Source: Lautropia sp. (GTDB lineage Bacteria > Pseudomonadota > Gammaproteobacteria > Burkholderiales > Burkholderiaceae_E). Taken from it: a DNA stretch of 64,000 nucleotides. Shown piece by piece: positions 38,780 to 58,988 of this stretch. Location of the stretch: the NCBI GenBank assembly GCA_030532895.1, contig JAUNKF010000002.1, positions 124,001 through 188,000 of the forward strand. Reading direction: 5' to 3'. The notes beneath the pieces were generated by a model that was not told the DNA's origin, did no database searches, and worked only from the letters and a program-made list of their open reading frames with translations. Each line of letters starts with the position of its first letter. Within the stretch, counting starts at the first letter, position 1. Both the position numbers and the translations under genes were made by a program.

Positions 38780-38856
38780 CGCGGGGTGGAGCAGTCTGGC
38801 AGCTCGTCGGGCTCATAACCCGAAGGTCGGAGGTTCAAATCCTCCCCCCGCAACCA
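38780..38856 (+). tRNA. initiator tRNA-Met (CAU)
   Basis: A 77-base tRNA ending in encoded CCA. It shares with E. coli tRNA-fMet the 5' CGCGGGG with the initiator C1:A72 mismatch, the anticodon stem TCGGGCTCATAACCCGA with three G:C pairs, and the anticodon CAT at 38814-38816. These marks distinguish it from elongator tRNA-Met. Confidence 0.97.
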
Positions 38857-50307: not shown

Positions 50308-51078
50308 ATGAATACCTCCGAGGTGAAACGGGTCATCGAAGGCGCGTTGCTATGTGCCAACAAGCCGCTGACCATACCCGAGCTGCGCCAGTTGTTTGCC
50401 GGTGATGTCGATATCGGTGCGGATTCCGTGCGCGACATTCTCGATACCTTGCGTGGCGAGTGGGTCGAGCGTTCGCTGAATCTGGTCTCGTTGGCGTCGG
50501 GGTGGCGCTTTCAGAGCGCACCGGACATTGCGCGTTTCGTCACGCGCCTGAATCCCGAGAAACCGCCGCGCTACTCCAGGGCCGTGATGGAAACGCTCGC
50601 CATCATTGCCTATCGTCAGCCCGTCACACGCGGGGATATCGAGGAAATTCGCGGGGTGACGGTGTCCTCCCACATCATCAAGACGCTGGAAGACAGGGGC
50701 TGGATCGACCAGATCGGCGTGAAGGACGTGCCCGGCAGGCCGGCCCTGTTTGGCACCACCCGACAGTTTCTCGACGACCTGAACCTGAAGGCTTTGGCCG
50801 AATTGCCCAAACTCGACGACGATGCCTTGCCTGCCGATGTGTTGCAGGCACTGGTGCCACCGCCTGAAGCGGGCGAGGGCGAAGCCGGGGAAGACAACTC
50901 GGCGGTGGTGTCCGAGCCGCCCGATGGCACGGGCGACGAGGGCAGTCAGGCGTCTTCGCAGCAGGGGGCGCAGAAGGTGGATATGGCGGCGCAGCTTGCG
51001 CCAGAGCGCGTCGAGGTGCCGCAGGCGGCCGAGACGACGGAAGAACATGCTGCGGTGGCTGCCGCAGACAACGCTTGA
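50308..51078 (+). CDS. scpB: segregation and condensation protein ScpB
   Basis: A 256-residue subunit of the SMC-ScpAB condensin. It has paired winged helices (residues about 1-180: [86 protein letters not shown]). The last 60 residues are acidic and Gln-rich without known fold. ScpA is not in the window. ATG 50308 begins the conserved region; the frame is open to 50227. The stop overlaps the following rluB-type gene by TTGA. Confidence 0.93.
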
Positions 51079-53222
51079 GTAAATGTGGCAGTTGCATGAA
51101 TAGCACGCACCAGGAAGACAATGTTGTGGTGAACGGTATGCATGAAGGTGATTCGTTGCCAGATGATTCGTTTGCGTCTGATGTGGATGGCGCAGGCGAA
51201 GGTGGGGGTGAGGGGCGTCCACGAGGCCGCAGGCGTGGCTTCATGAGGCGTCAGGGCGCTCCCCGTGCTGCGGCGAGGCGACGGCGGGCAGAGCGGCCCG
51301 ATGGTGATGGGCTGCTTTCTTCTGCGGCGGATGCCGACCCGACGGCAATGTCGTCAGCCGGCTTGCCTGCGCAAGCTCAGCCGCGAATGCCTGCACGCGC
51401 GCGGGCAACGGGCGAGGGCAAGCGGATGCCCGGTGATGATGAACGCGTGCCCTTCTTTGCCCGTGAGGCTGCCATTGGCCTGCGTTCGGGCGCTGCCCGT
51501 GGTGGAAAGCGTGCATCGTCGCCAGCAGCGGAGGCCGAGAAGCTGCACAAGATTCTGGCGGATGCCGGGATTGGTTCACGCCGCGACATGGAAGAGCTGA
51601 TCATTTCAGGCCGGGTGTCGGTGAACGGCATGCCGGCCCATGTGGGTCAGCGTGTGGGGGCCAATGACGTCATCCGTGTCAACGGCAAGCCATTGCCCCG
51701 CAAGCGTGTGGCGACGTCGGCCGTGCCGCAGGTGCTGCTCTATCACAAGCCCACGGGCGAGCTGGTGACGCGTGATGATCCGGAAGCACGTCCGAAAGTG
51801 TTCGATCGGCTGCCGAAGTTGCGCGGTGCACGCTGGATAGCCATCGGTCGTCTCGATCTGAACAGCGAGGGCTTGCTGATCTTCACCACGTCGGGGGATC
51901 TGGCCAACCGGCTGATGCATCCCCGCTATGGGTGGGAGCGTGAATATGCGGTTCGTGTCCTCGGCCGTGTCGATGATGAGGCCAGGCAGCGCCTGTTGAG
52001 TGGTGTGAGCCTGGAGGATGGGCCGGCCATGCTGAAGTCGATCGAAGACATCGGCGGCGATGGGGCCAACCATTGGTACCGGGTGGTCATCCTCGAAGGT
52101 CGTAATCGGGAGGTTCGGCGCCTGTTCGAGGCGGTCGGGTTGACGGTCTCGCGTCTGGTGCGCATTCGCTTTGGTCCGGTGGCCTTGCCGCCGCGTCTGG
52201 TTCGGGGGCGTTTTCACGCGTTGACCGATGACGAGGTGCGTCAGTTGCAGCAGCAGGTGCGACGCAATACCGGTGCATCGGTCGAGCCGGGCGCCGCGTC
52301 GGCCTCGAAACCGGCTGCCAAGGGACGTGTTGGTGCAGCGGTCGGGTCATCGCGTCATCCCACACGACGCCGGCTGTTGCGTGGGGCGGCCCGAGCTGCC
52401 CAGGCTGGCGACCTGCCGGGCATGCCGGCCGGGGTGTCGGGCGCTGAGCCGGCTGCGGAGCGCGTCGATCCGTTGCAGTCGCCCCGGCGGGGCAAGGCTG
52501 GTGCGCGTCGGAAGGTGGCCGATGGGGCGGAAGCCGCCTCGGCCCATTCACCGCGCCGTCGTGCGACGGGCAAGCGAGTGGGTGATGCAGCGGGGGCTGA
52601 GGGCGACGCACCGAAGAAACGGGCGGCGGGGCGTCGGACTCGTGCCCAAGGGCGTGCTGCGACCGAGCAGGTCGAGGCACCCCGCATGGTGTCGGTGAAG
52701 GTGCTGGAGCCCACGGCCGAGAAACGCACGCTGACGGTGAGCGAGCGTCGAGGCTGGACGGAAACCCGTTATCTGCCACAGGCGGTGTCTTACAGTGGTG
52801 ATACGGACTGGTCGAAGGTGGCGCGTGAAAGCGTCTTGCCGGATCGTCGTCCGCGTCGCACGAAACCGAAGGAGCGTAATGGCAATGTAGCCCCCCGCAC
52901 GCGGGTGGCACAGCCGGCGCGTCGGGTGAACTACGATGACGACAACTGGCAGCCGACCTCGGACACGGCGCATATGGAGGGCATCACCCGCTCGATGCGT
53001 CGTGATGGTCGCCAGGCGCGTTATGGTGCCGCCCCCGGTTTTGCTGCCCGGCTGGGTCAGCCTTGGGATCCCAATGCCGGCATGGCGAGCCAGTGGCCGG
53101 GCCAGTCTCGTGGCGCGGCTGCTCGGGGTGAGCGGGTGGGGCGTGGCAAACGCAACGCCGCGACCGGGGGGGCAGGTGGCGCCGCCCGGCCTCGTCGCAA
53201 GCCGGCTGTCAAGGGGCGGTGA
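51075..53222 (+). CDS. rluB: 23S rRNA pseudouridine synthase, RluB type, with long tails
   Basis: A 715-residue protein for a family of about 250-300. The catalytic core (about residues 150-395) has an S4 domain ([33 protein letters not shown]), the catalytic motif [15 protein letters not shown] (D261) and the C-terminal [33 protein letters not shown]. It modifies U2605-type positions of 23S rRNA in the E. coli counterpart. The N-terminal 150 residues and the C-terminal 320 are low complexity, rich in Arg, Ala and Gly. The start is not certain: TTG 51075 overlaps the scpB stop, and ATG 51096 is possible. Confidence 0.9.
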
Positions 53223-53300
53223 GCGTCGGGAGAACGCCTTGGTGCCTGCTTTCCTGGCATGTTGGCATCCGGTGAACGGGTCGGCTCGATCCGGTGATCC

Positions 53301-53329
53301 TTGAGTCTTTTCCGTCCATCGGTTATCAT
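53301..53329 (+). promoter_or_regulatory. sigma-70 promoter of the rimP operon
   Basis: TTGAGT at 53301-53306, 17 bases, then TATCAT at 53324-53329. Five of six at -35 and four of six at -10, with optimal spacing. Confidence 0.75.
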
Positions 53330-53335
53330 GGCCCT

Positions 53336-53586
53336 CTTGGCAAGACTTGCATTTTGAGTCGGTCGGGCGCCTGTCAGTGGCAGCTGTCCGGTCGGAGCCA
53401 TCGATGAAGGGCTTGCCGTGGTTCGGAGCTGCTCGTTTCGCTTCGTCGTTTGAGGCGACAGGGTCTGCTTCCGGCAGCTCCCAGTGGCTGATGCGCGCTG
53501 TAGGGCGGCATGCAACCGCGCGCTGGCGCTGCCTGGTCAAGGGTGGCTGTTGTGCGAAATGGGCTGGCAATAGCCCATTTTTTTTT
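53336..53586 (+). ncRNA. putative structured leader or small RNA upstream of rimP
   Basis: From the expected start of the promoter to the terminator is about 250 bases. It folds by eye into a long hairpin (GGAGCTGC at 53425-53432 with GCAGCTCC at 53474-53481, enclosing GTCG/CGAC), a GCGCGC pair (53493-53498 with 53518-53523), and the terminator. No Rfam family is recognised. In E. coli the rimP-nusA-infB leader is controlled by premature termination involving NusA; a similar role here is inference. Confidence 0.5.
53557..53586 (+). terminator. intrinsic terminator (attenuator candidate) before rimP
   Basis: Arms AAATGGGCT and AGCCCATTT with loop GGCAAT and nine T residues at 53578-53586. A textbook intrinsic terminator pointing toward rimP, 105 bases ahead of its start. 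Confidence 0.88.
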
Positions 53587-53690
53587 ACCGGATCGAGGCG
53601 CTGTCCACCGTGCGGTGGCAGCGTGCCGATGGCCTTGCCCTGCTCGGGGGCAAGCTGGCCATGTCATGAAGGGCAGTGTTGAACAGGGCA

Positions 53691-54353
53691 ATGAAGGTGG
53701 GAGCCAATCCAGAAGCGGGCGGTGGCCTGGAAGCGTTGGTGGAGCCGGTCGTTCAGGCGATGGGCTATCAGATGGTGGATGTGGAGTTTGCCGCTGGCGG
53801 CCTGCTGCGCATCACGATCGAGCAGGCCGATCATGACACACCGATCACGCTGGATGATTGCGAAAAGGTCAGTCACCAGCTGTCTTACCTGTTCACGGTG
53901 GAAGATGTCGATTACGACCGGCTGGAAATTTCCTCACCGGGTCTGGATCGGCGCTTGCGCAAACCGGCCGATTTCGAACGGTTTGCCGGTGAGGAGGTGA
54001 AGTTGTGGCTGCGCTTGCCGGTGGCAGGGCGGCGACAGTTTCAGGGCGTGCTGGTGCCGGCCGTGCCGGCGCTGGCACGTGCGACAGAATTGCTTGGGCC
54101 AGAGGCTGAGCCACCGGTGGTGGTTCAGGCTGGTGGTGCCGCGCCAGCCGACACCGACTGGCTGCTGTTGTGGCGTGAGCAGGCGCCGGCGGCCGGTCGC
54201 TCGCGTGGCGTGCCGGGGCGTCGTCCGCCCAAGGTCAGGCCCGTGCCGGCCGACCCCGTCGAGGCGGCTTTGCAGGCAGCAGATTGTCATTGGCTGCGAT
54301 TTGGATTTGAGCAAGTGGACCGGGCGCGTTTGGTGCCGAAGCCGGTTTTCTAG
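53691..54353 (+). CDS. rimP: ribosome maturation factor RimP
   Basis: A 220-residue 30S assembly factor. N-terminal domain: [21 protein letters not shown]...LLRITIEQ, then [56 protein letters not shown]. About 70 residues rich in Ala, Pro and Gly (135-190) split the C-terminal SH3-like half, making it longer than E. coli RimP (150). GTG 53676 and TTG 53679 are alternative starts with AAGGG just ahead. It opens the rimP-nusA-infB-rbfA-truB operon. Confidence 0.93.
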
Positions 54354-54362
54354 GGAGTCATT

Positions 54363-55853
54363 ATGCAGGGACGTGAATTGTTGCTGATGGTCGATGCGCT
54401 GGCGCGCGAAAAGAACGTCAGCCGCGACGTGGTGTTTGCCGCGCTCGAAAGTGCGCTCGCCTCGGCAATGAAGAAGCGTTACACGGATGAGGTCGATATT
54501 CGTGTCGCGATCAGCCGTGAGGATGGCAGCTACCGCAGCTTCCGTCGCTGGCAGGTGGTGCCCGATGGTGAGCTGGATGATCATGATCTGCAAATCATCC
54601 TGACCGAAGCGCGCAAGCAGTCGCCCGACATCGAGCTCGACGCGTACATCGAGGAAGAGCTGGAGCAGGTGGAGTTCGGCCGCATCGGGGCGCAGGCTGC
54701 CAAGCAGGTGATTCTGCAAAAAATCCGTGATGCGGAGCGTGAGCAGATCATCAACGATTTCCTGTCGCGGGGCGATTCATTGCTGTCGGGCACGATCAAG
54801 CGGATCGACCGTGAGGGCGCAATCGTCGAGTCGGGGCGTATCGAGGCCCGTCTGCCGCGCGACCAGATGATTCCGAAGGAAAACCTGCGCAACGGCGATC
54901 GCGTCCGTGCCTGGGTCTCGAAGATCAACCGTGAAGGCCGGGGCCCGCAGCTTTTCCTGTCGCGTACCGCGCCCGAGTTCATCATGAAACTCTTTGAGCT
55001 CGAAGTGCCGGAAATCGAGCAGGGTCTGCTGCAGATTCGGGCGGCTGCACGCGATCCAGGGGTGCGGGCGAAAATCGCGGTGCATACGGAAGATCGTCGG
55101 GTCGATCCGATCGGTACCTGTGTGGGGGTACGCGGTTCGCGCGTTCAGGCCGTCACGCAGGAGCTGGCAGGTGAGCGCGTGGATATCGTGCTGTGGTCGG
55201 AAGACCCGGCGCAGTTCGTGATCGGTGCGCTGGCACCGGCCAACGTCTCCTCGATTCTGGTCGATGAAGAACGTCATGTGATGGACGTGGTGGTCGATGA
55301 GGACAACCTCGCGCTCGCCATCGGTACGGGTGGTCGCAACGTGCGTCTGGCGTCCGAGCTGACGGGCTGGCAGATCAACCTGATGTCGGCCGAAGAAAGC
55401 GAGAAGAAGCAGGAAGACGAGCGCAACGCGATTCGTGAGGTCTTCATGGGTCATCTGGATGTGGATGCCGAAGTGGCCGATATCCTGATCGATGAGGGCT
55501 TCACCAGTCTGGAGGAAATCGCCTATGTGCCGCTCGACGAGATGCTGGAGATCGAGGCTTTCGACGAGGAAACGGTCAATGAGCTGCGCGAGCGGGCACG
55601 CAATGCGCTGCTGACGCAGGCGATCGCGACCGAAGAGAAGTTGAACACGACGGCAGAAGACCTGCTGTCGCTTGAGGGCATGGATCGCGAGCTGGCCGTG
55701 AAGCTGGCTGAGGCCGATGTCCGCACCCGTGATGACCTGGCGGAACTCGCGGTGGATGAATTGATTGAAATCACGGCGCTCGACGAGGAGCGCGCCAAGG
55801 CTCTGATCCTGAAGGCGCGCGAGCATTGGTTCGTCGATGATGCCGGTGCGTAA
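54363..55853 (+). CDS. nusA: transcription termination/antitermination factor NusA
   Basis: A 496-residue NusA, almost the E. coli length (495). Order: N-terminal RNA polymerase-binding domain, S1 domain ([37 protein letters not shown]), KH1 and KH2 ([62 protein letters not shown]), and two acidic C-terminal repeats. It binds RNA polymerase and modulates pausing, termination and antitermination. Start GGGAGTCATTATG. Confidence 0.98.
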
Positions 55854-55955: not shown

Positions 55956-58900
55956 ATGGCCAGTACGAACGTTGAGACATTTGCTGCGGAACTGAAAGTA
56001 CCTGCTGAGGTGCTGCTGGAGCAGTTGCGCGCGGCAGGTGTGGACAAGAAACATCCTTCCGATTCCCTGACGGAATCGGACAAGGAGCGTTTGTTGTCGG
56101 CACTGCGCGCCTCGCATGGTGGCGCTGAGACGCAAAAGCGTCAGAAGATCACGGTGGTTCGCAAGCAAACGTCTGAGATCAAGCAGGCGGATGCCACCGG
56201 CAAGGCACGAACCATTCAGGTGGAGGTTCGCCGCAAGCGCACGTTCGTCAAGCGTGATGCAGCGGGTGCCGCGCCTGGCGGTACGCCCGTGGTCGAGCAG
56301 GTGCCCCCACCGCCGGTGGCGCCGCCACCCGTTCAGTCGGCCAGTTCCGTCATCGATGAAGAGCAGCGTCGGCTGCGCGAGGAAGAGGCCCGCCGTCAGC
56401 AGGCGCTGATGGAGCGGCAGGCCCGTGAGCTGCAGGAAAAGACGGCCCGCCTCGAACGCGATCGTCAACGTGAGAACGAAGCCGCTGCCGAAGCCTCGCG
56501 TCGCGAGGAGGCGGCACGCGCCGAGCGCGAGCGCCTGGCGAAGATGCAGGCCGAGGCCGAGCGTGAGGCGGCTGCTGCCCGTGAGATGCAGCGCAAGCTC
56601 CGGGAGCAGCAGGGCGCCGATCAGGCGGCCCGCCAGCAGGCCGAGGCGCAACGCAAGGCGGCCGAAGAGAAGGCGGCTGCCGAGCGGGCCGCTGCCGAAG
56701 AGGCTGCGAGGGTGGCGGCCGAGAAGGCTGCCGAGGCGGCCCGCCGCGCGAAGGAAGAGGCCGAAGCTTCGGCGGCGGCGCGCCGGCGTGCCGAGGCCGA
56801 GGTGGCGGCCATCAACCGCTTGCTGGAAGCGAGCCGTCGTCCGCCACCACCGCCGCCGCCGCCGGCACCGCCCGCACCTGCTCAGGCGGCTGCCCCGGGG
56901 GCTGCTTCGGGTGACAAGGCCCGCCGTGGCGGCACCTTGCATCGGCCGGCCACCGGTGCGCAGCCTGCTGGCCAGGGAGCTGGCAGTGGCGGTGATTCGG
57001 CTGGCTCACGCAACAAGAATGCGAAGGGCGAGAAGTCGTCGTCGTGGCAGGATGATGCGTCCAGGCGTCGTCGTCCGGCCAAGGGCGGCCGCAACGACAG
57101 TGCGGGTGGTGCCGGGGCCGGTAGCGGCTGGCGTACCCGCGGTCCGCGCCGGGGCAATGATCGGGGCGGGCGTGGCGGTCATCATCAGCCGGCTCAGCCC
57201 GAGACGCCGATCGTGCGCGAAGTGCATGTGCCTGAAACCATCACGGTGGCCGAGCTGGCCCACAAGATGGCGGTGAAGGCCACCGAGGTGATCAAGCAGC
57301 TGATGAAGCTTGGCCAGATGGTGACGATCAACCAGGTGCTGGATCAGGAAACGGCCATGATTCTCGTCGAGGAAATGGGCCATACGGCGATTGCGGCCAA
57401 GCTCGACGATCCGGAGGCAATGCTCGATGAAGTGGCGGCAGAAGATGTAGGCCCGCTGTTGCCCCGTCCGCCGGTTGTCACCGTGATGGGTCACGTCGAC
57501 CACGGCAAGACCTCGCTGCTCGATTATCTGCGTCGCACGAAAGTGGCGTCGGGCGAGGCAGGTGGCATCACGCAGCACATCGGCGCTTATCATGTCGAGA
57601 CGCCGCGTGGTGTCGTCACCTTCCTCGACACGCCGGGCCACGCGGCCTTTACGGCGATGCGTGCTCGCGGTGCGAAGGCCACCGACATCGTGATTCTGGT
57701 GGTGGCTGCCGATGACGGCGTGATGCCGCAGACGATCGAGGCGATTTCGCACGCTCGTGCGGCCGAGGTGCCGCTGGTGGTGGCGATCACGAAGGTCGAC
57801 AAGCCTGAAGCCAATCCGGATCGGGTGCGTCAGGAGCTGGTCGCCCAGAGCGTGGTGCCCGAAGAGTATGGCGGCGACGTGCCCTTCGTGGGCATCTCGG
57901 CCAAGACGGGTGAGGGGATCGACGATCTGCTGGAGAACGTGCTGCTGCAGGCCGAAATTCTGGAGTTGACTGCGCCCGAGAAGGCGCCGGCTCGTGGTCT
58001 GGTGATCGAGGCGCGTCTGGACAAGGGTCGTGGCCCGGTGGCGACCGTGCTCGTGCAGTCCGGTACGCTGTCGCGTGGCGACACGGTGCTGGTCGGCTCG
58101 ACCTGGGGCCGGGTGCGGGCGATGATGGACGAGGCCGGCAAGGCTGCCACGTCTGCCACGCCGTCGATTCCGGTCGAGATTCAGGGCTTGAACGATGTGC
58201 CGCAAGCCGGTGAGGAGCTGGTGGCGCTGGCCGACGAGCGCAAGGCGCGCGAGATCGCGCTCTTCCGTCAGGGCAAGTTCCGCGATGTGAAGCTTGCCCG
58301 CCAGCAGGCCGCCAAGCTGGAGAACATGTTCGACCAGATCGGTGAGGGCGAGGTTCAGACGTTGCCGCTGATCATCAAGGCCGACGTGCAGGGTTCGCAG
58401 GAAGCGCTGGCGCATGCCTTGCTCAAGCTCTCGAATGACGAGATCAAGGTGCAGATCGTGCATGCTCAGGTCGGTGGCATCACCGAAAGCGACATCAACC
58501 TGGCGATCGCCTCGAAGGCCGTGGTGCTGGGCTTCAACGTGCGGGCCGACATGCCGGCACGCCGGATGGCCGAGTCCAATGGCGTGGACATCCGCTACTA
58601 CAACATCATTTACGATGCCGTGGACGATGTGAAGTCGGCGATGGAAGGCATGCTCTCGCCCGAGAAGCGCGAGACGGTCATCGGGCTGGTCGAGATCCGT
58701 CAGGTCTTCCGTGTCACGAAGGTTGGCACGGTGGCGGGCTGCTATGTGATGGAAGGTCTGGTGCGTCGCGATGCCGAGGTTCGCCTGTTGCGCGACTCCA
58801 CCGTCATCTGGTCAGGCCGCATCGATTCGCTGAAACGCTTCAAGGACGATGTGAAGGAAGTGAAGTCCGGCTTCGAGTGCGGCATTTCGCTGGTGAACTA

Positions 58901-58988
58901 CAGTGATATCCAGGAAGGTGACCAACTGGAAGTCTTCGAGGTGAAGGAAGTGGCACGTACCTTGTCGCTGCCGACCTCGGCGGTCTGA
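55956..58988 (+). CDS. infB: translation initiation factor IF-2
   Basis: A 1010-residue IF-2. The N-terminal 400 residues carry two parts: the conserved IF2N subdomain and a highly charged Ala/Glu/Arg helix (about 130-280), then a Pro-rich and Gly/Arg-rich linker. The G domain starts near residue 510 with G1 GHVDHGKTS, then [16 protein letters not shown] and [12 protein letters not shown]. Domains III-IV carry [40 protein letters not shown]. Longer than E. coli (890) because of the N-terminal region. AAGGAACTA precedes the ATG. Confidence 0.98.

Follow-up and report, generated by a model that had tools for sequence, protein, structure and literature searches.

What is the role of a promoter, a leader and an intrinsic terminator placed ahead of rimP-nusA-infB, the operon that encodes NusA? 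This question arises from a 64,000-nt stretch of DNA from an oral Lautropia, analyzed at its full length and referred to here as the window, for which the initial annotation offered two answers: an attenuated leader under NusA feedback, or an independent small RNA ending just before rimP. The evidence favors an attenuator, to which we assign a probability of about 0.72; here, the hairpin would terminate a fraction of polymerases, most likely under stimulation by NusA, and thus autoregulate the operon. Judged by its sequence, the element belongs to a known class, the rimP-leader attenuator, all of whose testable defining features were found in the window. A described but little-studied attenuator is thereby placed in Burkholderiales with strong conservation evidence, and the hairpin, not the surrounding leader, emerges as the conserved unit, its distance from the predicted promoter varying roughly tenfold.

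Organization of the locus

All genes concerned lie on the forward strand. An rluB-like pseudouridine synthase gene (51075–53222, from ORF translation) precedes rimP (53697–54353), nusA (54363–55853; encoding the proposed feedback regulator), infB (encoding IF2; 55956–58988, from ORF translation), rbfA and truB. The start of rimP is more likely the GTG at 53697 than the ATG at 53691, to judge from an SD-like AGGG at 53685, 8 nt ahead of the GTG; in several relatives, GTG alone is available. Both termini of the rluB-like ORF are extended by long stretches of low complexity. Repeats of this kind may explain why, in many draft assemblies from the order, contigs break off a few hundred bases ahead of rimP.

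The sigma-70 promoter proposed in the initial annotation is well supported. TTGAGT-17-TATCAT (53301–53329, forward strand) is the sole sigma-70-like site in 52800–54200, a region in which shuffles give 0.2, and the pattern TTGnnn-17-TAtaAT is kept, with its 17-nt spacing, in all eight readable Lautropia genomes. These eight members share the context TCGGyTAtaAT, located 188–254 nt ahead of GGGC. Reckoned from the −10 element, transcription would start near 53336. Across 97 loci of the order, the top promoter score ahead of the hairpin averaged 13.5, compared with 10.2 in dinucleotide shuffles, and reached at least 13 in 64% of loci versus 7% of shuffles; these figures are descriptive, because the scoring weights are simple ones of our own and the sampled loci are related.

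The terminator hairpin

The rimP-leader intrinsic terminator (53557–53586, forward strand) consists of AAATGGGCTG-gcaa-TAGCCCATTT followed by a T-run, its GGGC...GCCC stem forming the core that is invariant in relatives. A generic terminator scan of 52800–54200 found one site (counted as 53556–53581) against 1.2 expected and was thus not significant, whereas GGGC(N3-9)GCCCNTTTT occurs as a single site in the 64 kb window, with a chance mean of 0.07. The terminator therefore stands out by sequence rather than by generic shape. Sites of this kind are also rare genome-wide, loose matches to the terminator pattern numbering five in 3.6 Mb, with three for the reversed control. In folding calculations, the hairpin dominates the predicted ensemble (P 0.99–1.0, −12 to −14 kcal/mol). 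Given this strong stem and nine T residues, the hairpin might terminate without NusA, in which case NusA would tune termination rather than permit it. By analogy with known systems, partial termination would occur at 53580–53586.

The T-run, placed just before rimP by the initial annotation, ends at 53586, about 105–110 nt short of the start codon. No second promoter-like site was seen in the intervening spacer (53587–53690, forward strand) in the scan of 52800–54200. On the other side, a scan from 52800 revealed no terminator belonging to rluB ahead of 53301; thus, the attenuator hairpin may also halt rluB transcripts.

Conservation and locus specificity

To survey this element across Burkholderiales, the sequence preceding nusA, at most 2 kb of it, was collected from 100 relatives in 31 families; with the window included and one truncated locus (L010) left out, 100 loci were readable. 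The GGGC...GCCC stem and T-run precede rimP in 99 of them. The search pattern itself finds the motif in 97, two further loci (L093 and L097) carry a longer loop or a bulge, and L100 is the only one devoid of a GGGC/GCCC terminator. The terminator is likewise kept in all eight readable Lautropia genomes. Among 90 distinct copies, GGGC and GCCC are invariant and at least four T follow in every case; the fifth pair, the next one inward, varies with pairing mostly kept (TA in 37, TG in 18, GC in 15). Four metagenome-assembled genomes (L116, L121, L129 and L173) are labelled "Bordetella parapertussis", a label that looks doubtful; their NusA is about 70–82% identical to that of the window, and they appear among environmental Burkholderiales records.

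The exact motif is also nearly restricted to this locus. Of 150 Burkholderiales genomes, 91 contain ATGGGCN{3,9}GCCCATTTTTT, and 88 of its 97 matches fall 461–790 nt ahead of nusA in the same orientation; the reversed-pattern control gave 0. One of the nine remaining matches (G046) probably represents this very site, interrupted where a contig ends. Outside Burkholderiales, 12 genomes in a sample of the phylum have the motif directly before rimP-nusA.

These data bear on the notion that the hairpin is a constitutive terminator insulating the operon from rluB transcripts, or an attenuator of fixed ratio, with no sensing of NusA. The strength of the hairpin and the lack of a separate rluB terminator before the promoter would suit such a device, but an insulator has no need for GGGC and GCCC to be invariant across the order, nor for a position behind the operon's own promoter, which the hairpin nonetheless occupies in all eight readable genus members. 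We thus regard this explanation as unlikely.

The leader body

The predicted leader body (53336–53556, forward strand, its start placed from the −10 element) is not conserved. Leader bodies in the genus range from 176 to 242 nt, and only those of the window, L003 and L004 can be aligned with one another. The initial annotation described several stems in this interval; however, the predicted fold in the window is barely, if at all, better than that of shuffles (z −1.55 for the whole leader, −0.54 for the body), and its minimum free energy pairs, kept at 0.77 and 0.62 in the two nearest relatives, do hardly better in the others (0.51–0.56) than slid controls (0.29–0.58). The consensus fold of the leader body is likewise non-significant (25 of 200 column shuffles were as good). 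Conservation of the stems in relatives, on which the annotation had been made to depend, thus holds for the terminator and fails for the leader.

Several classes of regulatory leader were considered. The leader pairs with the 5′ arm of the terminator more than shuffled sequence does in the window (0.86 vs 0.50) and in L009, but not in most relatives; no consistent sequestration of this arm, as expected of an antiterminator, was seen. A leader-peptide attenuator was rejected, as no SD-led short ORF is common to the genus leaders. A riboswitch, T-box or known ribosomal protein leader was likewise rejected, with no described RNA family matched in Rfam; searches at gathering and permissive thresholds returned nothing useful, and one match to an unrelated lncRNA model (E = 2.3) represents chance. 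To judge from these comparisons, the leader body is a lineage-specific spacer without a conserved fold.

The alternative offered at the outset, a trans-acting small RNA of about 250 nt delimited by the promoter and terminator, with rimP transcribed by other means, would draw on precisely this interval. A complete promoter-terminator unit does exist, and the average genus leader body has a somewhat better fold than its shuffles: all eight fall on the negative z side, with L007 (z −3.4) and L008 (z −2.8) strongest. Even so, no structure common to L007, L008 and the other genus bodies was seen, and the body lacks conserved sequence or stems even inside the genus. The empty Rfam search and the lack of a second promoter-like site for rimP also count against a small RNA, as does the want of room for one in many families, where the best −10 element sits only 18–45 nt before the hairpin. 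A small RNA is therefore highly improbable, and of the two original answers it is the attenuator, with its conserved, locus-specific terminator and its match to the rimP-leader, that is well supported.

Variation in promoter-to-hairpin distance

The distances discussed here rest on predicted start sites; a search of the literature on Burkholderia and Ralstonia found neither mapped start sites nor small RNAs at rimP or nusA. Across the order, the hairpin lies a predicted 18 to 254 nt beyond the −10 element; of 62 strong cases, 19 have a distance of 18–32 nt. Named loci (Zoogloea, Sulfuritalea, Ralstonia and LSUCC0115, for example) show about 30–80 nt. In short-distance lineages, the hairpin begins some 5–20 nt past the predicted start, and rimP often starts 22–26 nt after the stem. 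Because the predicted distance varies from about 20 to about 250 nt, the long leader is lineage-specific and the hairpin is the conserved core. If anything here is new, it may be this variable and often minimal predicted spacing.

It is tentatively conceivable that, in many betaproteobacterial families, NusA feedback operates at such a promoter-proximal stop with release of an RNA of only about 30 nt, and that Lautropia with its long leader departs from this rule; if true, NusA would be subject to a very early, sequence-specific termination checkpoint. Whether ordinary termination could take place where the hairpin nears the predicted start, as in many relatives, is uncertain. The range of distances in any case supplies natural variants for probing how NusA senses its own level.

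The same geometry invites another explanation, in which the hairpin is chiefly a sequence-specific 5′ mRNA element (governing stability or pausing, or serving as a protein- or RNA-binding site) and its terminator shape is secondary. Sequence invariance does exceed the needs of termination, and in many families the hairpin would open the predicted mRNA, and rimP would begin about 22–26 nt after it. However, T-run and stem are equally conserved, which points to termination, and the hairpin of the window itself sits well away from the start site and from the gene. This explanation is quite improbable.

Proposed mechanism

For the attenuator, the following sequence of events can be envisaged. RNA polymerase would initiate near 53336 and synthesize a leader of about 250 nt. 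Some polymerases would stop on reaching the GGGC...GCCC hairpin and U-run (53557–53586) and the remainder would enter rimP-nusA-infB; termination would most likely be stimulated by NusA through its binding to polymerase and hairpin. Excess NusA would consequently lower transcription of its own operon, and a shortage would raise it. Such feedback on the window's operon is likely by analogy. Sequence and conservation establish the promoter and the hairpin, whereas Escherichia coli and Bacillus subtilis are the basis for inferring that termination is partial and depends on NusA. The sensor could also be another protein of the operon, for example RimP.

Several lines of evidence support the attenuator: all eight readable genus members keep the promoter and terminator around a divergent interval; across the order and beyond, the terminator is conserved in sequence and specific to rimP-nusA; and the element matches a published one.

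Relation to described attenuators

That published element, the rimP-leader, was described by Naville and Gautheret (2010; PMC2965389) as a short, highly conserved GGGc...gCCC terminator 4–130 nt before rimP. It was the most widespread predicted attenuator, had no antiterminator, and NusA was proposed as its sensor (PMC2965389). The window agrees with its general form (PMC2965389, Fig. 2b) throughout: an intrinsic terminator upstream of rimP-nusA-infB, a GGGc...gCCC stem with a U-stretch, a terminator-to-gene distance within the 4–130 nt range, specificity of the motif for the rimP-nusA locus, and no larger conserved element or antiterminator. Nothing essential differs; the window adds a non-conserved spacer of about 220 nt between promoter and hairpin.

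The gammaproteobacterial tandem form (Rfam RF01770; PMC2965389, Fig. 2a) precedes the same operon. In E. coli, a hairpin resembling that of the window, CTGGGCtttaGGCCCTTTTTTT, lies just before rimP, behind a CCCCGA...TCGGGG terminator; the upstream CCCg...cGGG terminator/antiterminator of the tandem form is absent from the window. Membership in RF01770 was rejected, with no cmscan match in the window and none of 61 genomes over the gathering cut-off. A sub-threshold RF01770 match (5.1e-4) at G050:C1:2331696-2331791, in the genome of L002, is far from that genome's rimP-nusA and probably arose by chance.

Regulation by NusA itself is reported elsewhere. A 2025 review (PMC12288461, its ref. 34) has B. 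subtilis NusA autoregulated through NusA-stimulated termination in a leader; there, too, a terminator lies ahead of the same operon, and the window's leader is proposed to act in a similar way, with NusA dependence reported for B. subtilis and only inferred for the window. For the E. coli metY-rimP-nusA-infB operon, PMC6511841 describes terminators t1 and t2 before rimP and a rise in operon transcripts when NusA termination is impaired. Pre-rimP terminators are thus common to E. coli and the window, and in E. coli NusA represses the operon. The E. coli operon is headed by the initiator tRNA gene metY, whereas the initiator-like tRNA of the window lies 14 kb upstream; this tRNA-Met gene (38780–38856, forward strand) closely resembles E. 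coli metY in sequence.
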